Shown one piece after another: positions 3,510-27,533 of a DNA stretch of 64,000 nt (within the stretch, counting starts at the first letter, position 1; every line of letters begins with the position of its first letter). This DNA comes from Pegoplata infirma (Eukaryota; Arthropoda; Insecta; Diptera; Anthomyiidae): positions 89,217,904 to 89,281,903 of the forward strand of contig OY992538.1 of NCBI GenBank assembly GCA_963921195.1. The letters run 5' to 3'. The position numbers and the translations under genes are program-made. The notes beneath the pieces are model-generated. The model ran no database searches. It saw only the letters and a program-made list of their open reading frames with translations, and was not told where the DNA came from.

Positions 3510-4773
3510 AGGAGTGAGATCATAAAAATGTTAACACACATAAAGTTAAATAAAAAACAGACTACTGAATTTTAAGACTTCAAACGAAATTTTTATTAAA
3601 TAAAATTTAATACAAAATCATAACAAAAAAACCGCATGGAACTCTAACCACTACGAACAAAGGCTTTTATGGTAGTTTCTGTCACCTTTTTAGAGCAGGT
3701 GGTCCATCTACGTTTGAAATCTTGCATGTCCTGGGAGACCTTTTTTGTGCCCTTTAATTCTTTTTTAACAAGAGCCCAATATCTCTCCACTGGCCTGAGC
3801 TCCGGGCAGTTTGGTGGATTTGCCTCTCTTGGTACAAAAACCACATTATTATCATTATACCACTCCAGCGCTTTCTTGCTGTAGTGACAAGATGCTAAAT
3901 CGGGCCAAAAGTAAGTGGATACATTGTGCTGACTCAAGAACGGAAGAAGTCTCTTCTGCAAACACTCCTTGATATAAATTTCGCTGTTTATAGAGCCAGA
4001 TGTCACAAATGACTGGCTTCTTTGGCCGCAGCTACATATGGCTTGCCATACTAGGAATTTTTTGGGGAATTTCGTTTGCTTTTTTGACCGAAATTTTTCC
4101 GCAACATTTCCTCGAACATCGGAAACATAAAATTCTTGACCAGGGAGCTGCGCAAAATCAGCCAGGACATAAGTTTCGTCGTCCATTACACAACAGTTGT
4201 ATTTTTTTATAAAATTTGATTTCAATTTTCTAGCTCTGGTTTTGGCCTCCAAATTTTTAAAAGCGTTTCTATCGGGAACTTTTTGAACTTTTTAGGACTT
4301 TAGTCCCGCCTTACGTTTCACTTTACGTACAAAAAAGTCTGAGCATTGGGCTAACCGAGCTGTTTTTCTGCCAGATGTGTTAGGAGCTCTCTTAAGGATG
4401 CTTTTAACTTTATATGCCTTACCAATGTTACGATAACCAGTCGTTGTTCCTGTTCCCGGCTTCCTTTCAATTGTTAGGTGTTCCAGATACCTTTTTACCA
4501 CTTTTGAAACTGTTTGGCGGCATACATTAGTTTCTTTGGCAATTTTTTTGTATGTCCATGTTTGGTTTTGTTGAAAATATTTAATTATTTTTGAACGCAC
4601 TTTTCTTTCATCGTCCATTGTATAAAAAATTGCAAATTAAAACTCATGATGTAAATTAATTTATTAACTGACATATTTTTAAAATGTAAACTGCCGAAAA
4701 AAAAAAAATTTGGAAGCTTTACACCAAAGTTGTAGGCAAAAATGTGTGTTAACATTTTTATGATCTCACTCCT
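3510..4773 (-). mobile_element. IS630-Tc1-mariner element, DD37E (ITmD37E-like), 1264 bp
   Basis: The element is bounded by near-perfect inverted repeats of about 30 bp starting AGGAGTGAGATCATAAAAAT and is flanked by TA on both sides (3508-3509 and 4774-4775). Removing it and one TA restores the LINE reading DFRPI-SLSS. It contains one transposase gene on the minus strand, broken by one stop codon. The near-perfect TIRs and single lesion suggest a fairly young copy. Confidence 0.95.
3644..4618 (-). pseudogene. Mariner-type transposase (DD37E) with one in-frame stop
   Basis: The transposase would cut and rejoin the element ends at TA dinucleotides. It reads from ATG at 4618 to the stop at 3644 in one frame, about 325 codons, the usual length for the superfamily. 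The N-terminal part (residues about 1-110) is a helix-turn-helix DNA-binding region with ARKETN-like spacing (KKIAKETNVCRQTVSKVVKR). The catalytic acidic residues are visible as VMDDETY, then FWPDLASCHY, then CPELRPVERYW. The second D and the E are separated by 37 residues, the signature of the DD37E group described from mosquitoes. A TAA at 4292-4294 interrupts the frame after GLKS, and the frame continues directly as KVQKVPDRN. A tyrosine codon at that place would be typical, so a single nonsense change is the simplest cause. The copy is inactive as it stands. Confidence 0.92.
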
Positions 4774-4775
4774 TA

Positions 4776-5729
4776 GTCTGTCTTCCTTTTTGTTAAAGAC
4801 AATGGAACGAATGATAGACTCATATTTGCGTAGAGTGATTGACCCGAGGTTGCTTTCGACAAAGCAACATGCATACAGCAAGGGACGATCAACGGAAACA
4901 GCTCTTCATGAGCTCGTTGGTACCATCGAGAGCTCGCTTTCGGTAAAGGAGTACACTATGGTGGCCTTTCTTGATATTGAGGGGGCTTTTAATAATGTCA
5001 TCCCAGAATCGATAATATTGGCATTGTCTGGTCTGGGAGTAAAGCGTGAAATCGTTTTAATGGTGGAAAGCCTACTTGCCAGTAGACGTATAACGTCTGA
5101 ATTGGGAGCGTCCGTCATATCTCGATTTGTCAATAGGGGCACACCACAAGGAGGTGTTCTTTCGCCGCTTCTTTGGAACCTGTCACTGAATTCAATGCTA
5201 CTATCTCTAGAAGCACGTGGTTGTCATGTTGTCGCATATGCTGACGATGTCGCGATCGCGGTAAAGGGGAAGCATCTGCCAACATTGCGGGACATTCTTC
5301 AGGGTTCTTTGAAAGATCTGTCTAAATGGGCAAGAGACTGTGGTCTAGGAGTTAATCCTAGTAAAACAGAGCTTGTTTTGTTTACAAGGAAAAATAAGAT
5401 TCCTGCTTTTGATCCTATTTCTCTGGACGGTACTGAAATCACCTTCTCAGATGGAGCCAAGTATCTTGGAGTATTTCTAGATAGGAAGCTGAATTTCAGG
5501 CGTAATATTGAGGAACGGGTGAGAAAAGCAACGATTGCTTTGTATTCCTGTAAAAGGGCCATTGGAAAACGATGGGGTTTTAGCCCTCAAGTCGTTCATT
5601 GGATCTATACAGCAGTGGTGCGTCCAATTTTGCTGTATGGAATCATTGTCTGGTGGCCTGCTTTAGAAACAAAATCGAACTGTGTCTTTATCACGAAGGT
5701 ACAGAGAATGGCGTCAATGTGCATCACTG
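4776..5729 (+). pseudogene. LOA-like ORF2 piece 2: reverse transcriptase core
   Basis: This is the main RT domain of the host LINE. Landmarks in order are SLSSFLLKTMERMI, QHAYSKGRSTETALHEL, AFLDIEGAFNNV (first catalytic Asp), GTPQGGVLSPLLW, YADDVAIA (catalytic Asp pair), SKTELVLF, and the thumb region KYLGVFLDRKLNF. All RT catalytic aspartates are present and the frame is open through the piece. It begins right after the mariner target TA and is cut after ASMCIT by the TIR element at 5730. It is part of a broken element and has no start of its own. Confidence 0.92.
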
Positions 5730-6051
5730 CACTGAAAGAATTATTGTTCATTCCATCTATGAACAAATTTCATAAAACCAAATTCATAGAATCTATGAAA
5801 CAATTCATTGGCTGAATGAATATTCATTAGTATTCTGAAATTTTTCATAGAATTTTATTCATAGATTTTATTAAATTCATAGAAAAAATTCATAGAATTA
5901 ATGAATGTCATTCATAGAAGAAAATGCCATCAATATGCCATTTAATTTTTTAAATAATTAAAATAATGTTATTATAATTAAAACAGTTGAATAAATTTAT
6001 TAAAAAAAATAAAAAAAAAATAAAAAAACATTAAAAAAAAAAATTTTCATT

Positions 6052-6133
6052 GCTGCCCTGACCGGGGCTAGAACCCAAGACCTACCGGCTGAAGTGGCAA
6101 TTGTCGACGCCGTAGCTATCAGCGCCACCAAAG
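6052..6133 (-). other. tRNA-like module inside the TIR element
   Basis: Read on the minus strand it has a D-arm/A-box-like part (GCTGATAGCTACGGCGTCGA) and a B-box-like GGGTTCTAGCCCCGG. It is followed by a run of A on that strand. The pairing of the acceptor stem is not convincing, so this is a tRNA-derived relic or SINE head and not a gene. Confidence 0.45.
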
Positions 6134-6320
6134 AAGAAAAATCTCGCCAACTAACGCTTGGTTTTATAACGCTTCATTTTTGTAAATACACAAAATATTT
6201 GTTTTATACAAACACACACACAGCTTTTGGCAGAGCATTGTGACAGAGCAAAGACACAAACTTAATATGTTAGCAGAATATTATTCAAAATAGCTTTTAA
6301 GTGTTGTTACTTGTTTATAT

Positions 6321-6391
6321 AATTTAGCTAAGTGGTTAGACACTAAGCTTCACGAACAAGAGGTTCTATGTTCGAATCTCGGTGGGGATAA
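6321..6391 (+). other. tRNA-like module inside the TIR element
   Basis: The plus strand shows AGCTAAGTGGTTAGACA (A-box/D-arm-like) and GTTCGAATCTCGG (B-box-like), spaced as in a tRNA and followed by A-rich sequence. The T stem is imperfect and the acceptor does not close well. It is a tRNA-like relic. Confidence 0.45.
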
Positions 6392-6670
6392 GTTAAAAAA
6401 AAAATATAAATTTTTAAAAATAGAAAATAGTAAATAAATGAAATAATAAAAATAAAATAAAAAAAAATAAAATTGAAATAATAAAATAAATAAAAATAGA
6501 ATTGAATAATAATTTTTTTTCCATAGCCTATGAACTTTTTCATAGGTTTCTGGTTTCTATGAATTTGTTTCATAGATTCTATGAAGGGCATCATTGGCTC
6601 ACTTCTAATGATTTTTTTCATAGAATCAATGTACGTTTTCATAGCCGTAATGAACAAAATTCTTTCAGTG

Positions 6671-7404
6671 TGGTGCTCTTCGTACTACACCTACGGCTGC
6701 ATTAGAAATCCTCCTTCACCTGATACCCTTGGACATATTGGGTAGGCAGTATGCAGCTGCGTCGGCAATTCGACTTAATAGCACGCTGCAATGGAGGAGC
6801 AGCGATTGTGGCCATAGCGCGATCTTGAAAAAGATAACAATACCACAAAATGTGGATTGTGCTCCCTCTTTGAGCCTCTTTGAGCGCCACTTTACCACTA
6901 TGATACCATCCAGGGAGTCTTGGATGGGGGATACTCCGGGCAGTGGAGCTACCATAAATTTTTACACAGATGGATCGAGGCTGCACGAACAAGTGGGCTT
7001 TGGGGTCTATTCGGAAGAGCTTGGGTTGAGCCTGGCTCGTAGATTGCCAGATCATTGCAGTGTCTACCAGGCAGAGATGCTGGCAATAAAGGAAGTGGCT
7101 GACTGGTTGAGCTGCAATGTCTTGTCTACAACCGCAGTCAACATCTATACTGACAGTCAAGCCGCGGTCAAGTCCCTGGATTCAATGTTTCTGAAAACAA
7201 GATCTGCCCTTAACTGCAGCACGTCTTTAAATGAGATGGCCAAGCAGTTTAACATACGACTCATATGGGTTCCAGGGCACAGAGACATTCCAGGGAATTG
7301 CAAAGCCGATGAGCTTGCAAGACTAGGAACTACCTTACAGGTTCCAACAGAATTGGAATGTGTTGGTATGCCTCTAGAAACTTGCAAGCAAAACCTACGG
7401 CTTT

Positions 7405-7405
<1 letters not shown>
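6671..7405 (+). pseudogene. LOA-like ORF2 piece 3: RNase H domain
   Basis: This continues the host LINE after the TIR element as GALRTTPTAALEILLHLIPLD and then encodes an RNase H domain that would degrade the RNA template. Catalytic positions are all visible: FYTDGSRL (D), YQAEMLAIKE (E), IYTDSQAAVKSL (D) and WVPGHRDIPGNCKADELAR (H and last D). The frame is open to the next insertion. The piece is cut after CKQNLRL by the minus-strand LINE, whose poly-A tail is read here as poly-T. The intact catalytic set suggests that disruption came mainly from insertion, not long decay. Confidence 0.92.
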
Positions 7406-7441
<36 letters not shown>

Positions 7442-7512
7442 TTTATTAGTATTAAAAATACTTTAAATATTCCAAAATATTACATAAATTCATATTACAT
7501 TAGTTATAAGTT

Positions 7513-10302
7513 CTATATAAATAAATTGTATCTTACTACATTTGTACATTTTTTTCTAAATACATTGTAATTTCTTTCAAGTTTCATGTTGTTTGGTAAA
7601 TCATTGAACAATTTAAAGCCTTTATAAAAAAGGGATCTCTGCATATGTGTTGTCATGACTCTTTGGATTCGAAAATCTTCAGTATTTCTTAGTGCGTACG
7701 GTTGTACTTCTCCAACATATTTAATTTGATCGCATAGATATTCTGGAGCATCACCTTGTTTCATTTTTTTAATAAAAATTAAAGTGTTGAATTTCAGTCT
7801 TTGATTTATATTTAACCATTTTAGTTCTCCAAGCATTTCGTTGATGTGTTTATATCGATTGCATTTTAGTATAACCCTCATTGCTTTGTTTTGTAGTTTT
7901 TGCATTCTTTCTACCTGACTATCATTACAGCAAGTATATATTATTGTCGATCCGTATTCAAAATGTGGTTTAATTATTGTGTTATAAATATTTATTGCAG
8001 TTGTTTTTGATATTTTATTTCGTATTCTTTTAAAAAATCCGATTTTTTTCCCTATTTTTTTACAAGTATAGTCTATATGTTCTTTAAATTTTAAGTCTTT
8101 ATCTATTATAAATCCGAGATATTTTATGTGTTCAACTTTTTCTATTATTTTATCGTTAATTTTAAATATTGCTTCAGTGTTCATATTTATTTCAATTATT
8201 TTTGTTTTATTTTCGTTAAGTTTTAATTTATTCATTTTTAACCATGTATTAATTTTATTGATGTCATGGTACATATTTGCTCTGCAACTTTCATCATCAT
8301 CTCCTTCCGTGTATATTAATGTATCATCTGCGTAAAGGACCATTTCACTTCTATCTAATACCTTTGGCATGTCATTAATATATATAATAAATAAAAGAGC
8401 TCCCAAAATTGAGCCTTGTGGTACACCGAAATCATTTTCAATTTCATTTGACAAAACATTATTAACTTTAGTTATTTGCTTCCTATTTTTTAAATACGAC
8501 TCGAACCAATTTAATTCCGTACCTTGTATTCCATACATATAGAGTTTTTTCACCATAATTTGTCTGTCGATTGTTTCAAAGGCTCGTTTAAAATCTAAGA
8601 AAATTGCCATCACTTTTTTTGTTTTTTCTATATTTTTCCATTTACTTATTACATAATTTACAGTCGTTTCACATGAGTATTTTTTACGAAATCCTGATTG
8701 GTACTTTGACAATATAGAGTTTTCTTCAATATATTTTTCTAATTGTTCTTTGACAACTTTTTCCAAAATTTTTTCACAGGTTTTTAATGTGTTTATTGGC
8801 CGGTATTCTTCGCATTTATTTGTTTTTGTCACTTTTTCAATTGGTGTTATCATAGTTACTTTCCAATTTTCAGGGAATTCACCTGTATCTAACGATTTAT
8901 TTATAATTTTTAATATTGATTCTCCTGTTACGTTCCAGTTATCAAGAATGATTTTATTAGATATTTTATCACAGTCGGTTTTATTTTTCATATGTATAAT
9001 TATATTCTTAAGTTCTAAAATGTTTATTGCACGGAATTTGAATTGTTGGTTTATCACAGTTATTTGGTTTTCATATTGCTCATATTCTATGGAGTCTCTT
9101 ATTGCTTTAATACTATCTACAAAATAATTATTGAATTGACTAGCAATTTCTATATTATCCTTATATTCTACTTGGTTAAATATCACAGTTTTTATCACAT
9201 TATTGTTTTTTTTGATTACTAGATCTTTGATCTCTCTCCACATTTGTTTTTGATCACACGCATTGTTAATTTTATTATTAATGTATTTATTTTTTTCGTT
9301 TTCGATTTTCACTTTATATAAATTTCTTATTCTTTTGTAATTGGCCCATGCCTGATATGTATTTTCCAATTTTGCTGTTTGGTATTTAATTATTTTATCA
9401 TTTTTCATTAAACGTAATTCACTATTAAACCACCGATTTATATTGCTTTTTTCCCGTATAATTCTTTTATTAGTAAATTTTTGTATAGTTTCTTTAAAGC
9501 AATTATCAAATAAGGTTACATTTTCATTAATGTTTTTATTTTCATTGTATACCATATTTTTACTTAACTCTGTGTTAAATGTCTCTTTATTGTACTTAAA
9601 AATTTCTAGTTCTTGGTTGTCTATGTTGGTATAATAATTTTTTTCAGTTTTAATTAAAATATTTATCATTTCATGATCTGCTATTTTATCTGTAGTGCTG
9701 TTGTTTACTGATATATTACAATTATTTGTTATAACAAAGTCAATTATTGTTCTAGAATTTTTTGCTACTCTAGTATATTCACTAACTAATTGTCTAAGAC
9801 CATTATCATTTAGTATACATTCAAGTTGATTTTTATGTGCCGAATTTTTAGACCAATCAATATTAAAATCTCCTGTTATTAAAATATCACAGTTATAATC
9901 ACTTATTTCATCTAAAACTTCTTCAAAACTTTTACAAAACTCCGACTCTCCATAACTAGGCGATCTGTATATTGCAGCAATTATTATTTGATTGTCTTCA
10001 CATGTGGCTTTACATACTAAAATCCAGTATTTAACACCTTCTATCTTTTCAATAATTTTAGTTAGTTTCCATATCTTTTTAAAATAAATAATGACTCCAC
10101 CAGTTCTTGAAGAAGTAGAAAGCGACATAACATGATCATACCCTTGTAATATAATTTCATTTTCTTCTACGTCTTTTGTAATGTGGGTCTCCGAAAGTAT
10201 AAATAAGTCCGGGTTTTCTTTCGATGCAATGACTTCCACTTGATTATAATTATTTACCAATCCTTGTACATTTGTGTATAGAGCACGTATATTCTTTGAT
10301 TG
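7513..10302 (-). CDS. LINE ORF2: APE-type endonuclease and reverse transcriptase
   Basis: This enzyme nicks genomic DNA and copies the element RNA at the nick. The open frame runs from the codon after the ORF1 stop (10302) to 7513, about 930 codons. Endonuclease landmarks: NIRALYTN immediately after the stop, FILSETH, AIYRSPS, ITGDFNIDW and ADHEMI. RT landmarks: EEYRPINTLKTCEK, YQSGFRKKYSCETT, IFLDFKRAFETID, GVPQGSILGALLF, YADDTLIY and KYLGFIIDKDLKF. No RNase H follows. There is no ATG between the ORF1 stop and the catalytic start of the endonuclease, and the first candidate near 10260 is TTG. Expression must therefore use readthrough, reinitiation at a non-AUG codon, or the stop is a mutation. 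The clade is CR1 or jockey group and not resolved further. Confidence 0.93.
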   Translation of the reverse strand, partial: QSKNIRALYTNVQGLVNNYNQVEVIASKENPDLFILSETHITKDVEENEIILQGYDHVMSLSTSSRTGGVIIYFKKIWKLTKIIEKIEGVKYWILVCKATCEDNQIIIAAIYRSPSYGESEFCKSFEEVLDEISDYNCDILITGDFNIDWSKNSAHKNQLECILNDNGLRQLVSEYTRVAKNSRTIIDFVITNNCNISVNNSTTDKIADHEMINILIKTEKNYYTNIDNQELEIFKYNKETFNTELSKNMVYNENKNINENVTLFDNCFKETIQKFTNKRIIREKSNINRWFNSELRLMKNDKIIKYQTAKLENTYQAWANYKRIRNLYKVKIENEKNKYINNKINNACDQKQMWREIKDLVIKKNNNVIKTVIFNQVEYKDNIEIASQFNNYFVDSIKAIRDSIEYEQYENQITVINQQFKFRAINILELKNIIIHMKNKTDCDKISNKIILDNWNVTGESILKIINKSLDTGEFPENWKVTMITPIEKVTKTNKCEEYRPINTLKTCEKILEKVVKEQLEKYIEENSILSKYQSGFRKKYSCETTVNYVISKWKNIEKTKKVMAIFLDFKRAFETIDRQIMVKKLYMYGIQGTELNWFESYLKNRKQITKVNNVLSNEIENDFGVPQGSILGALLFIIYINDMPKVLDRSEMVLYADDTLIYTEGDDDESCRANMYHDINKINTWLKMNKLKLNENKTKIIEINMNTEAIFKINDKIIEKVEHIKYLGFIIDKDLKFKEHIDYTCKKIGKKIGFFKRIRNKISKTTAINIYNTIIKPHFEYGSTIIYTCCNDSQVERMQKLQNKAMRVILKCNRYKHINEMLGELKWLNINQRLKFNTLIFIKKMKQGDAPEYLCDQIKYVGEVQPYALRNTEDFRIQRVMTTHMQRSLFYKGFKLFNDLPNNMKLERNYNVFRKKCTNVVRYNLFI

Positions 10303-10305
10303 TTA
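10297..10305 (-). promoter_or_regulatory. In-frame TAA CAA TCA between ORF1 and ORF2
   Basis: The ORF1 stop is followed in the same frame by CAA and TCA, which fits the stop-CAR-YYA context known from tobacco mosaic virus-type readthrough. ORF2 sense begins within four codons (KNIRAL). That this is functional readthrough is inference. Confidence 0.5.
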
Positions 10306-11619
10306 AACTGATAAGCCAATCCTTCTCATTTTTAAATTCAATTTATTCTGATAAACGGGGCATTCTCTACTGTTTGTAAAATGGTTTTCATCTAAATCCA
10401 TATTTAGTTTATTGTTCATTTTCATGCAATTTATACATTTCATTATCTGCTCCGTATTTTTGCATTCTTTTGTTTTATGTTGTCCATGACATCTCAAGCA
10501 TATTTCCTGATTTTTGCATTCTTTTGCGATATGGTTATATCCTCTACATTTAAGGCACTGCGTAACATCTGTTCCATCGAACACTCTACATCTTTCCCAT
10601 CCAATATTTACTTTCCTTGCTTCTATCATTTTCGTATATGTTTCGTTATCCACTGCCATTTTCACATTATAGATTGTTTTATTATTTCTTTTGATTTGAT
10701 ATTTTTCTATAATTTTGAGTTCTGCATTAGAGATACTTGGGTTCTGCTTTTTTAGTTTCTCAATTATTTCCTCCTCTTCATGTACAAAAGTCATATCCGT
10801 AATTTTAACTCTTAGCTCAATTGGGTTGGGTACCTTAATTTCATATCCTTCTGTTAACTCGTTTTCTATTGCACTTTTTATTTTCTCTCTTTCTTCACTA
10901 TTCTCACTTTGGATTACAACCGTTCCATTTCTTCTATTTTCTACGCCTGTAATTTTTAAATTAACTGGATCAACTTTATCATTTAGTGCTTCCCTTGTTT
11001 TTTCTACCCCTTGTTTCTCCTTTGGTTTTACAATTAAGGGCACCTGTTTGTTAGCATCTGGTAGCACTGTTTTTTTTACCGACTCTGCATATGTTGGTTT
11101 TTTGTTGGTTTCTTTTAATACCTTCTTTATTTCGTTACACATATTTTTGTTCTTTTCTTCTATTGACTTGCACATTTCTTTATTGTTGTTTTCAAAATCA
11201 TTTACATTAATATATAATTTTTTAACTTCTTCCACATTTTTTTCACATGATTTTTGAACAGTATCCATTTTTTTTAACCTTTCTTCGTATCTTTTTTCTA
11301 TTGCCTCTAACAATTGTTTTAGTTCACTCTCGCTTTGTTTTAATGATGATGAAAATTCGTGTTTATAATCTACCAGGTTTTGTTTGTTTTTATGTACATC
11401 TTCCTGTATATCTTTTAGTATCATATCGACATTGTGAATGTACTGGATACAATCCTCACATACAAAACGTAAAAAATTACTTTCTTGCAAAGTTTTTTGG
11501 GAATACTGATCAATACCGGAACACTTCATAGAACTGTGATATGTTTTTTTACACACCCCCTCACATTGAATACCCGTTTCCCCACGAATGGATGACTTGC
11601 ATTTACTGCACTCAGCCAT
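10303..11619 (-). CDS. LINE ORF1: PHD finger, coiled coil, zinc knuckles
   Basis: This is a 438-residue RNA-binding partner of ORF2. The start is ATG at 11619, context AGTCATGG. Residues 4-57 show Cys and His spaced as C-x2-C-x11-C-x3-C-x4-H-x4-C and a final C-x2-C, which fits a PHD finger, as known in CR1-clade ORF1 proteins. Residues about 60-165 are rich in K, E and L and look coiled-coil. The C-terminal third carries CLKCRGYNHIAKEC (C-x2-C-x4-H-x4-C) and CLRCHGQHKTKEC zinc knuckles and a third degenerate one. It ends in RRIGLSV followed by TAA at 10305-10303, and the same frame continues as ORF2. The frame is intact throughout. Confidence 0.9.
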   Translation of the reverse strand: MAECSKCKSSIRGETGIQCEGVCKKTYHSSMKCSGIDQYSQKTLQESNFLRFVCEDCIQYIHNVDMILKDIQEDVHKNKQNLVDYKHEFSSSLKQSESELKQLLEAIEKRYEERLKKMDTVQKSCEKNVEEVKKLYINVNDFENNNKEMCKSIEEKNKNMCNEIKKVLKETNKKPTYAESVKKTVLPDANKQVPLIVKPKEKQGVEKTREALNDKVDPVNLKITGVENRRNGTVVIQSENSEEREKIKSAIENELTEGYEIKVPNPIELRVKITDMTFVHEEEEIIEKLKKQNPSISNAELKIIEKYQIKRNNKTIYNVKMAVDNETYTKMIEARKVNIGWERCRVFDGTDVTQCLKCRGYNHIAKECKNQEICLRCHGQHKTKECKNTEQIMKCINCMKMNNKLNMDLDENHFTNSRECPVYQNKLNLKMRRIGLSV

Positions 11620-11801
11620 GACTGAGTGCTTTTATTGTGTATTATTATAAAAACGTTTATTTTTATAAAAACTTTATTTTCCACTAATTATAATTAGTAT
11701 TTTTTATGGTTTTTAATAGTCCTGTCTATTTTTTTAAAACCAATTATTATTTTATTTTATTATTTTTATAGAGCTTTAGTTTTTACACTTCTTTACATTT
11801 G

Positions 11802-12213
11802 GCGTTGCCAGACGATTCTGCGACGGAGACTAATCAAAGATGGGCAAATGGATGGACGTGTGAGACAACACGACTGATTTGGCCTTCTCTTAATCAGGGG
11901 CGCACAAGTGAGCTGATATCGCTTCCAAGGGGAGAGATTTCAACGGTGGTTTCTATAATTACCGGACACTGTCTTATAGGGAAGTACGCAGAGCGGTTAA
12001 ATGTGCCGTCGAATGACTTTTGCCGAAGTTGCATGGATGAAGAGGAGTTGGAAACTATCGAACACTTTATTTGCCATTGCCCGGCACTTTCTGGTCAACG
12101 ACTTGCTTCACTGGGATCTAGGGAGCTGTACGATCTTTCAGATTTGTCGGATGTCAAAATTCAACATCTAAGGAGTTTCTTAAGAAGCTCAAACTGGTTT
12201 AACGACAGGGACT
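11802..12213 (+). pseudogene. LOA-like ORF2 piece 4: C-terminal Cys-His tail
   Basis: This resumes the host LINE as ALPDDSATETNQRWANGW and contains the tail motif typical of R1/LOA/I-type ORF2 proteins, here TGHCLIGKYAERL, then DFCRSCMDEEELETIEHFICHCPAL, a C-x2-C...H-x4-C arrangement that may bind nucleic acid. The ORF ends at TAG 12213-12215. The join to piece 3 is out of frame by one base if TTTG is the target duplication, so a small extra change or a different duplication length must be assumed. A 3' UTR of about 100 bp follows to AACCTAACCCAACCTAA. Confidence 0.88.
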
Positions 12214-12318
12214 AGTAGGGAAACCTATTACGATCCCGTGGTATCATAATGGACCTCAGAGTCTACGTGTGTTGACCTAAAACGTCAGCAGCCACTTACA
12301 ACCTAACCCAACCTAAGT

Positions 12319-24139: not shown

Positions 24140-27100
24140 ATGGATCGATTAACAGGCGACGGAACCAGGCTACGAAAAAGGAACAATGATTTTAGGAAAC
24201 ACGATTGGAAATTTGGAAGTTGGAACGTAAGGACAATGCTACAAGCTGGAAAAATGCAGGAAATAGCAATCGAAATGAGAAAATTTAAACTACAAGTCCT
24301 TGCGCTACAAGAAATACGATGGAATGCAGCTGGTAGAATTGATAAACCGGATTATACCGTTTTTTATAGTGGTACTTTAGAAAAGAGCGGACAGGCCGGT
24401 ACCGGGTTTATGATCTCGGAGGATATCAGAAATTCAGTATTGGGATTTATTCCAATTGATGAAAGGCTATGCTCATTAAGGCTAAAAGGAAGGTTCAACA
24501 ATATCACTATCATATGCGCATATAGTCACATAATAATAGTGAGCCTCCCTATTAATATGTGTATCTTCTCCCTTCTACTCTTACTGTCTCATATAAATGT
24601 TTTATTTAACTCTCTCATTATTTTAATGAAGTTCGTTTTCCCTTTCCGTTCAATGTTTCCCTTTCCTATTAGCTAATAAACCTTTATCATTTACTCTCTT
24701 TCTCTCTCGCTCTTTATATGTTATTGTTCCTCTTCCGCTAAACAGTTTCCCTTTCCCAACAAGTTAATAAATTAACTAGAATAAGAACTTGAATATATTT
24801 TATGTACCTAGATAATAATTTTAAAGAGATTTAGAAAACTGTCTTAAACTTAAAGTCTAACAATAAAGACATATTTTTGTTTATTTCCATTAATAAAATG
24901 TTGTTTTATTTGTTAATAATAAAATAATATAAGTATATGCACCCACTGAAAATTCCGAAGAAGAGGAGAAGGAAAAGTTTTACCTACTTTTGGAGTCTCT
25001 AATTGACAAAACACCAAAATATGATACAATTTTAATGCTAGGTGATTTCAATGCGAAAATCGGAAAGGAACAATTTGTCAAAGATGTTGCAGGCATCCAC
25101 TCCTTGCACAGTGAAACATCGGAAAATGGCCTTAGACTCTGTCAAGTAGCTGCAAATTACTCGCTATATATAGCAAGTACACATTTCCCACATAAGTCAA
25201 TACACAAAGGTACATGGAAACACCCAAGATTTGAAAATGTAAACCAAATTGACCACGTCTTAGTCAACAAGAGAAGACTATCATCAGTTATTGACGTCCG
25301 CACATGTAGAGGTGCTTATTGTGGAAGTGACCATTATATGGTTAGAATTGTTTTCCGACACAAACTTTCTAACGTAATGAAAGAAAAAGGCCAAAGGAAA
25401 CAGAAATGGGATGTGGATAAACTTAAAGATGTACATATAAAACAAATTTTTCAGCAAACAATAAACAACAAGCTAATAGATACAGTAAACGATGACAACA
25501 CAGATGCTAACGAATTATGGAAACGATTAAATACAACTATGAACGAAACGGCAACAGACACAATTGGCTATGTAAAAAGGAAACGAAATGATGAATGGTT
25601 CGACAATGATTGTGAAATAGCCGTAAAAATGAAAATGGAAGCAAGAACAAAATGTCTTGCACAAAATACACATCAAAACGCCAGTAACTACAAATTGTTT
25701 AGAGCGCAGGCTAAAAGGCTTATCAAGAGGAAGAAAAAAGATGCCCAAAAAAGAAAAATCGAAAAAATATGTGACGATTTTGACTCCGGCAATTCGAAAG
25801 CTTTTTATCAAGGAATAAAAAATATTAAAGATGGGTTCCAGCCAAGACTTAATAACTGCCAAGATAAAGATGGAAACGTTCTAAGTGAAAATAACAAAAT
25901 ACTAAAAAGATGGGAAGAGTATTTTAGTGGATTGTTGAACATCCCTGAACAAAGTAGTGACCCAGCTACTGAATCAAACATAATGTACGAACAGACCTCA
26001 ACATATGATGTATCACCTACAATGCAAGAAGTCGAAAAAGCGATATCGCAAATAAAAAATAATAAAGCACCTGGAGATGATGGTCTAGTTGTAGAACTAT
26101 TTAAGAATGCAGGTACCGAATTTATGAAGCAGATGCATAGTTTGATAACTACAATATGGAACACCGAAACGCTCCCAGACGATTGGCAACGAGGCATTAT
26201 AATCCCAATACATAAAAAAGGAAATAAACTGAAATGCGAGAATTATAGAGGAATTACTTTGCTAAACACCCCATACAAAATCCTTTCAAACATCATCAAC
26301 AACAGACTCACAGAAGTATCGGAGACTATTTTAGGGGAATACCAGTGCGGGTTCAGGCCTAATCGATCCACAACTAACCAAATATTCCTACTCAGACACA
26401 CAATGGAGAAAGGCTATGAATATCAACGCGATCTACATATACTTATGATAGACTTTAAACAAGCGTTCGATTCAATAAATCGAAAACTTCTTGAACCAAT
26501 GTTTTTAAGTATGGGAATTCCCCAAAAATTAACAAAAATGGTTGCGCTTACACTTAAAAATACAACATGCAAGGTAGCGATACAAAATAACGTTTCATCG
26601 GAGTTCGAGATAACGTCAGGGGTTAGGCAGGGAGATGCGCTCTCAACAACAATATTTAATCTAACCCTTAACCAGGCAATATCCATCTTAGATAGAGGAG
26701 GACACATATTCTCAAGATCATCAATAATGTGTGCCTATGCAGACGATATAGCGTTAATATCACAAAGTATGCGCGATTTAGAAGAAAATTTTACTATCTT
26801 GGAAGCTGAAACTAGAAAGCTGGGCCTGATAATAAATGAGAGTAAGACGAAATATATATTTATGTCGCGAAATCAAGAAATAAATACACAACAAGCGATA
26901 AAGTTAAATGACTATACCTTCGAAAGGGTTAAGAGCTTTAAATACCTCGGCACTCTAATCAACAGTAACAATGATATGCATTTATCAATAAATGACCGCA
27001 TCCAAGCCGCCCAAAAATCTTTTTATGCGCACCTCAAATTATTTAAATCGAAAGCAATCTCCCGTGCTGTAAAGATCAGGCTTTACAAAACTGTGGTACT

Positions 27101-27533
27101 GCCAGTTCTTACATACAGCTGTGAAACATGGGCAATGACTTCAACAGATGAAGAAAAGTTGAGAATATTCGAACGAAAAATGATAAGGAAAATCTATGGG
27201 CCCAAAAGAGGGGAGGACGGCAGTTACATAATGCGAAGTAACCATGAAATTGACCTCATACTAGAAGGATCAAATGTAGTTAAGCTTATTAAGGCCCAGA
27301 GGTTGCAGTGGGCAGGCCATGTAGCAAGAATGCCAGATGATAGAGCCCAAAAAAGAATCCTTAACGCTATGCCACACAGGACTAGAGCAAGAGGTAAACC
27401 AAGGTCAAGATGGCTAAATGGTGTTGAAGATGACTGCCGAAAAATCGGCATTAACAACTGGAAGAACTCGACTAATAATAAATCCGAATGGAAACGAAAT
27501 GTGAATAAGGTTAAGGCCCACCCCGGGCTGTAA
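24140..27533 (+). pseudogene. RTE ORF: endonuclease plus RT, split by a solo LTR
   Basis: A single polyprotein nicks target DNA and reverse-transcribes the element RNA. It reads 24140-24523 and 24939-27533 in the same frame once the LTR and one ATAT are removed, 992 residues, with no other stop or frameshift. Endonuclease: SWNVRTM, LQEIRW (Glu about residue 58), MLGDFNAKIG, DHVLV and GSDHYMV. RT: NNKAPGDDGL, ENYRGITLLN, QCGFRPNRSTTNQI, LMIDFKQAFDSI, SGVRQGDALSTTIFN, CAYADDIALIS and FKYLGTLI. The C-terminal tail has LQWAGHVARMPDD and GKPRSRWLNGVEDD, conserved in RTE-type proteins. The start is the ATG at 24140, 26 residues before the endonuclease core. Apart from the insertion the gene appears intact, so it was probably mobile recently. 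Confidence 0.93.
24524..24934 (+). mobile_element. Solo LTR of a 17.6/297-like gypsy element, 4-bp TSD ATAT
   Basis: A 411-bp non-coding insertion starting AGTCACATAATAATAG and ending AATATAAGT. It is flanked by ATAT at 24520-24523 and 24935-24938 and splits the codons of ICAY-APTE exactly. AGT...-type termini and ATAT targets are typical of the 17.6/297 group of gypsy-like elements. An AATAAA lies at about 24862. There is no internal region. Confidence 0.8.

Follow-up and report, generated by a model that had tools for sequence, protein, structure and literature searches.

The stretch analysed here, which we call the window, comprises 64,000 nt of the fly Pegoplata infirma (Diptera: Anthomyiidae; assembly GCA_963921195.1, contig OY992538.1, positions 89,217,904 to 89,281,903), and its minus strand carries a full-length long interspersed nuclear element (LINE) with two open reading frames, ORF1 and ORF2 (see the table). 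The 5′ end of the element, TCTGGCAACGCC, is common to eight other copies (L002, L003, L006, L007, L008, L009, L011, and L013); among the copies compared with the window element, L014 lacks it. ORF1 has a PHD finger near its N terminus and CCHC zinc knuckles near its C terminus. The corresponding Pfam models were found in 4 of the 61 ORF1 family members for PF00628 (PHD), the window's own ORF1 not among them, and in 8 of the 61 members scanned for PF00098 (zf-CCHC), while a profile search against PDB returned nucleocapsid chains for the zinc knuckles (best E value, 0.0005). ORF2 encodes an apurinic/apyrimidinic (AP) endonuclease, whose Exo_endo_phos match falls exactly at the Pfam cut-off (24.5 bits versus 24.5; E value, 2.6e-5), followed by a reverse transcriptase (RT), and its profile matches human L1 ORF2p with an E value of 3e-39. 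Jockey-superfamily LINEs have an ORF2 without an RNase H domain. Pfam likewise returned RVT_1 and Exo_endo_phos alone for ORF2 and no RNase H domain, so that by AP endonuclease and RT without RNase H the element appears to fit this superfamily, our tree holding no named reference elements.

Features of the LINE in the window (positions are those of the 64,000-nt stretch)
Feature	Position	Strand	Basis or remark
Full-length LINE, putative Jockey-superfamily type	7409..11812	-	5′ end TCTGGCAACGCC through end of poly(A) run
5′ untranslated region, ~193 nt	11620..11812	-	
ORF1, 438 aa	10306..11619	-	ATG at 11619; 61 related proteins found
PHD finger of ORF1, residues ~3-61	11437..11613	-	A1 profile against PDB: Pygopus PHD, E value 1.3e-8
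CCHC zinc knuckles of ORF1, Cys355 to Cys420	10360..10557	-	Nearly invariant Cys/His alignment columns
ORF1 stop codon TAA, proposed readthrough codon	10303..10305	-	
CAATCA, CAR-YYA hexanucleotide directly 3′ of the stop	10297..10302	-	Motif definition in PMC3542737
ORF2 frame, 929 aa, endonuclease and RT	7516..10302	-	
ORF2 codon 11, Asn	10270..10272	-	Aligned with Asn14 of human L1 ORF2p
AP-type endonuclease domain	9697..10272	-	Pfam Exo_endo_phos, ORF2 residues 11-202
First in-frame ORF2 ATG, codon 59	10126..10128	-	Downstream of Asn codon 11
RT domain	8104..8826	-	Pfam RVT_1, ORF2 residues 493-733, E value 2.6e-34
3′ untranslated region and poly(A) run	7409..7512	-	Poly(A) ends at 7409

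A single TAA, followed directly by CAA TCA (positions 10305-10297), separates ORF1 from ORF2, and the two open reading frames share one frame. The first Met of ORF2 stands well behind the Asn of codon 11, which we take to be the catalytic residue by its equivalence to Asn14 of human L1 ORF2p. An earlier sequence-only reading of this DNA had described both the in-frame stop and the lack of an ATG ahead of the catalytic Asn, and in both it was correct. It had also called stop-CAR-YYA an established leaky termination context.

The junction is conserved among copies of the element in the 1.38-Gb host genome, as the same reading had proposed to check. A DNA search returned 42 matches, 10 of which, the window's own included, reach 99 to 100% identity across the query, and L002 and L003 are identical to the window copy (100.0% over 3,576 bases). 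A protein search spanning the junction gave at least 105 matches (119 of 2,777 candidates were scored, making these counts lower bounds). We examined 51 loci for the junction, excluding repeat fetches of one place, and obtained 44 junction-spanning matches, 43 of which carry stop-CAR-YYA: TAA CAA TCA in 30, TAA CAA CCA in 8, TAG CAA TCA in 3, and TAG CAA TTA in 2. The 44th, L019 (C5:215954589), lacks ORF1; its 5′ truncation falls exactly at the first base past the ORF1 stop, and the copy starts with CAATCA. Seven loci gave no spanning match: L017 is the same copy as L021, L066 and L127 are one place at which the junction is lost, L104 is rearranged on the ORF1 side but retains TAACAATCA, and L107, L110, and L111 have no stop-CAR-YYA within the fetched stretch. 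The junction reading does not include a number of weak or decayed matches close by (e.g., C1:131109976).

Because copies of one family share one master, we count families rather than copies. The 43 junctions fall into eight families by our own division: A, which includes the window copy; B, ~90% identical to A; C, D, E, and F, at ~70% DNA identity; and T1 and T2, at ~40% protein identity, TAG CAA TTA being the T2 junction. A protein search seeded with T1 recovered the same two groups, with further matches at no more than 31% identity, nearly all of them without a stop. Two family C copies (L023 and L025) have in common a tandem duplication of ~21 nt right after the stop, with TAA CAA TCA intact, and L021 (C3:73718156) is interrupted beside the stop, and 9 bp of the element recur on each side of the interruption.

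Across the families the junction varies within narrow limits. Two stops (TAA and TAG) and three second codons (TCA, CCA, and TTA) occur in the host genome, while a more distant element, L067 from a soil-metagenome contig, has CTA. Codon 2 is thus always YYA, whether it encodes Ser (TCA), Pro (CCA), or Leu (TTA or CTA); all four YYA codons occur, and amino acid changes at this position remain inside the type I (tobacco mosaic virus) readthrough motif, which speaks for selection on the nucleotide sequence. TCA makes up 0.23 to 0.32 of Ser codons, and the chance of finding it in all four Ser families (A, C, E, and T1) would be ~0.25^4 = 0.004 if these were independent, a figure weakened by their relatedness. 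In-frame CAR-YYA pairs number 4 to 7 per ~930 ORF2 codons in the three elements counted, the junction pair included. Furthermore, ORF2 codons 1 to 58, the stretch ahead of the window copy's first Met, diverge far more at synonymous than at nonsynonymous sites (proportions of differences, pS/pN: A/B, 0.32/0.04; A/C, 0.65/0.21; T1/T2, 0.62/0.20), the weakest pair being A/D (pS, 0.51; pN, 0.34), and the final 58 codons of ORF1 are likewise constrained. With the exception of A/B, fly pairs have pS of 0.50 to 0.85, and pN within the TAA group is 0.16 to 0.34. These values show the coding sequence to be constrained both ahead of the stop and after it.

With the frame, the context, their conservation, and the constraint established, we infer that programmed stop-codon readthrough very probably yields ORF2 as a rare fusion with ORF1. 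Most ribosomes on ORF1 would terminate at TAA and release the ORF1 protein, while CAA TCA right after the stop would serve as a type I CAR-YYA signal; in a minor fraction of ribosomes, a near-cognate tRNA would decode the stop and translation would continue in the same frame, yielding an ORF1-ORF2 fusion of ~1,370 aa with endonuclease and RT. One signal would in this way fix how much enzyme is made relative to nucleic-acid-binding protein, comparable to retroviral Gag-Pol, and the ORF1 part would package the enzyme together with its RNA in one particle. CAR-YYA is described as stimulating readthrough of UAA and UGA besides UAG, and type I signals as acting as primary sequence (PMC3542737); in a mammalian UGA reporter, the effect depends on each of the six CAR-YYA bases (PMC4132726).

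Elements with the motif have no evident start of their own for ORF2. Between the stop and the catalytic Asn, all 10 CAR-YYA elements examined (nine families when L067 is included, two elements belonging to family D) lack a Met; their first in-frame Met falls at codons 15 to 106, the frame of family F being broken. In other LINE lineages of the same genome, a Met precedes the Asn by 10 to 36 codons in 10 of 10 loci, several of them of one family.

Related proteins extend this picture beyond the host genome. The named ORF1 relatives come from Haematobia irritans, Lucilia cuprina, Condylostylus longicornis, Culex quinquefasciatus, and, weakly, Toxorhynchites, all of them Diptera. We aligned 60 of the 61 related ORF1 proteins, omitting P0143; 57 reach the end, of which 39 terminate at exactly the same residue and 55 lie no more than 3 residues from it, 10 of these 55 ending two residues earlier. 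These are gene-caller ends, and a contig edge would look identical. L067 (34% identity) has an ORF1 open for 443 aa, then TAG CAA CTA, and then ORF2, in which His stands at the place of the catalytic Asn, such that this copy may be defective. Together with P0025, L067 is sister to the other 19 rows of the clade (support, 100/100), which would place the motif on both sides of the clade's deepest split, given a midpoint root only and rows between L067 and the fly families whose junctions are not covered. In viral_contigs, a single-protein search returned no relative and an alignment search returned one short RT match.

Several observations weigh against readthrough. Among 20 close relatives (P0001 to P0020; 55 to 70% identity), the called ORF2 start precedes the Asn in two (P0001, codon 3, directly behind the place of the hexamer; P0004, codon 7), while 17 start after it. 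Likewise, 6 of 12 more distant relatives (P0021 to P0032) have called starts before the Asn at codons 3 to 10 (P0022 at codon 3; P0021, P0025, P0026, P0028, and P0032 at codons 5 to 10), with the other 6 after it, and P0025 is the very sister of L067. These starts are gene-caller output taken from proteins; ATG, GTG, or TTG is possible, as is a wrong choice of start. Some relatives may nonetheless have their own ORF2 start, at which reinitiation would be possible. The sequence-only reading's expectation that ORF2 has no ATG of its own thus holds before the Asn in the host-genome elements read and is less certain in these relatives. The remaining close relative, P0010, sister to family D in the tree, is a 1,367-aa ORF1-ORF2 fusion in which Gln occupies the position of the stop; mutation of this copy, a variant of the assembly, or loss of the stop in its whole family may account for it. 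The sequence-only reading had named three kinds of copies that would speak against it, those with a shifted frame, a conserved ORF2 ATG, or a sense codon at the stop. Neither of the first two was found in the host-genome elements read, and the third was found once, in P0010. The decayed fragment C1:131109976-131110278, which extends across the junction, has one TGA inside. Moreover, CAA is the usual Gln codon (0.77 to 0.91 of Gln codons), which makes codon 1 alone weak evidence. In mammalian cells, CAR-YYA promotes far less readthrough at UAA than at UAG or UGA (PMC4132726), and TAA is the stop in 38 of the 43 junctions; such weakness would fit a low enzyme dose. Finally, readthrough of this junction is a prediction from sequence only.

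Termination followed by reinitiation on ORF2 at or near the stop is an alternative that the called starts of some relatives favor. SART1, a silkworm LINE whose ORF1-ORF2 junction is likewise special, resumes translation where stop and start codons overlap (UAAUG), and such coupled termination-reinitiation has been proposed for mammalian L1 as well (PMC5972666). In the LINE of the window, however, the restart would need a non-AUG codon: no AUG overlaps or adjoins the ORF1 stop in any of the 10 CAR-YYA elements, just as none has a Met before the Asn, and ATGs of any frame near the junction shift place between families. Nor would a conserved CAR-YYA be expected to play any part in reinitiation, which we consider unlikely.

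We give even less credence to editing or splicing that would remove the stop from the RNA, or to production of ORF2 from an internal ribosome entry site (IRES). Editing of UAG to UGG is possible in principle, but TAA would need two edits. Dicistroviruses initiate on non-AUG codons via an intergenic IRES (PMC3542737), whereas simple folding, restricted to the side 3′ of the stop and to structures other than pseudoknots, gave 17 elements with no more than ordinary stability (z, -0.78 to 2.26). Either route would leave the conserved CAR-YYA without a reason. That a nonsense mutation broke an ancestral ORF1-ORF2 fusion and left these copies as dead descendants, the alternative offered by the sequence-only reading, has in its favor the stop-free P0010 and the single change that separates Gln codons from TAA or TAG, but it is very improbable and is contradicted for the lineage as a whole: the stop is kept across eight families with widely diverged synonymous sites and constrained amino acids on both sides, it stands in ~100% identical and hence recent copies, and 55 of 57 related ORF1 proteins end at or close to that position.

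If readthrough is the route to ORF2, its closest counterparts are viral. TAG CAA TTA, the junction of family T2, is the context of tobacco mosaic virus. As in the type I class to which that virus belongs (UAG CAR YYA), the stop of the LINE is followed directly by CAR-YYA, the downstream frame codes for a polymerase and is constrained, and the signal is short and local, with no 3′ structure by simple folding. The T2 junction is also the benyvirus context, and natural cases generally use UAG (PMC3542737), whereas most families of this chromosomal LINE use UAA. Gammaretroviral Gag-Pol likewise has a nucleic-acid-binding protein and RT in one frame with a stop between them, but there UAG is combined with a 3′ pseudoknot. 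The hexamer differs from that of the LINE, which has no structure by simple folding (a method blind to pseudoknots), and the layout of the LINE, with its poly(A) end and AP endonuclease, is not retroviral. Tca2, a long terminal repeat element of Candida albicans, also has an in-frame stop, UGA, between gag and pol, for which a reporter study found no readthrough (PMC7175516).

Among LINEs, the arrangement resembles ORF1 type IC, which comprises a PHD, two RRM, and three CCHC domains, is found in CR1 subgroup 3 and L2 subgroup 2, and comes nearly all from mosquitoes, also Diptera (PMC4120745). The likeness lies in the PHD and zinc knuckles of ORF1 and the endonuclease and RT of ORF2, the ORF1 type being matched on PHD and CCHC alone. 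The main text of PMC4120745 mentions neither "stop codon" nor "readthrough." Broken copies of human L1 have been suggested to undergo readthrough of their premature stops (PMC4176336). In the open-licence PMC literature, outside of which lie subscription journals and Repbase, no programmed ORF1-ORF2 readthrough in a LINE appeared among the matches listed, and CAR-YYA occurred together with a retrotransposon only in the Tca2 paper. LINEs and type I readthrough are each known, and it is their combination that was not found among those matches.

ORF2 expression has been worked out for few LINEs, which use overlapping stop-start reinitiation, 2A peptides, or single frames. If our reading is true, readthrough of a viral type would be a further route, the working enzyme would be an ORF1-ORF2 fusion, and separate lineages of chromosomal LINEs would have converged with RNA viruses on the same recoding signals. 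Gene callers split such elements in two and would miss the true ORF2 start.

In-frame stops also occur in other LINE lineages, on contigs in bacterial and archaeal assemblies that appear to be animal-host DNA. Five contigs from Poribacteria assemblies (L087, L088, L090, L092, and L093), whose hosts are probably sponges, form a separate clade in the tree and have an ORF1 open for 362 to 491 aa, a TGA, and an in-frame ORF2; the matched stretch of each contains this single TGA. The stop is followed by CTA in four of the five and by CTC in one, CTA making up 0.11 to 0.20 of their Leu codons. The end of ORF1 is weakly constrained (pN, 0.45 to 0.54), and the start of ORF2 is well conserved (pN, 0.14 to 0.23). 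TGA-CTA is described as a type II readthrough motif (PMC3542737 and PMC4132726); simple folding of these contigs did not reveal the extended stem-loop that type II signals usually have. A search of 84 genomes of the same phylum returned the same five contigs and one weak, broken match (E value, 8.4e-4). At a third place in the tree, L069 and L071 have in-frame TAG GGG and TAG GAT, respectively, with no Met before the Asn; here TAG-G stands right behind a zinc knuckle, possibly a type III readthrough pair. Although the samples are small (five contigs with TGA and two with TAG-G), we lean toward readthrough being an old and repeatedly evolved LINE route to a Gag-Pol-like fusion, of type I in the clade of flies and a soil host, where the fly motif drifts only within the viral consensus, of type II (TGA-CTA) in a probably sponge-hosted clade, and with TAG-G in a third.

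The 2A-like motif NPGP was not seen in the window element. It is present close to the N terminus of the L087 ORF1 frame and ahead of the endonuclease in eight LINE-like contigs (L070, L072, L076, L077, L081, L084, L086, and L097), seven of them from mussel-symbiont assemblies; the print of L077 ends at NPG.

The element of the window lies within another LINE-like element on the plus strand, parts of which flank it at 4736-7408 and 11813-12215. This outer element has RT and RNase H on one side and a weak match to the zinc-binding model zf-RVT, below the cut-off, on the other. When the empty site is reconstructed by eye from the flanks, the frame of the outer element is rejoined, and no target-site duplication stands out clearly. 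Another stretch resembling a LINE ORF2 lies at 24990-27209 on the plus strand of the window, with 24% identity to the ORF2 described here (tblastn).

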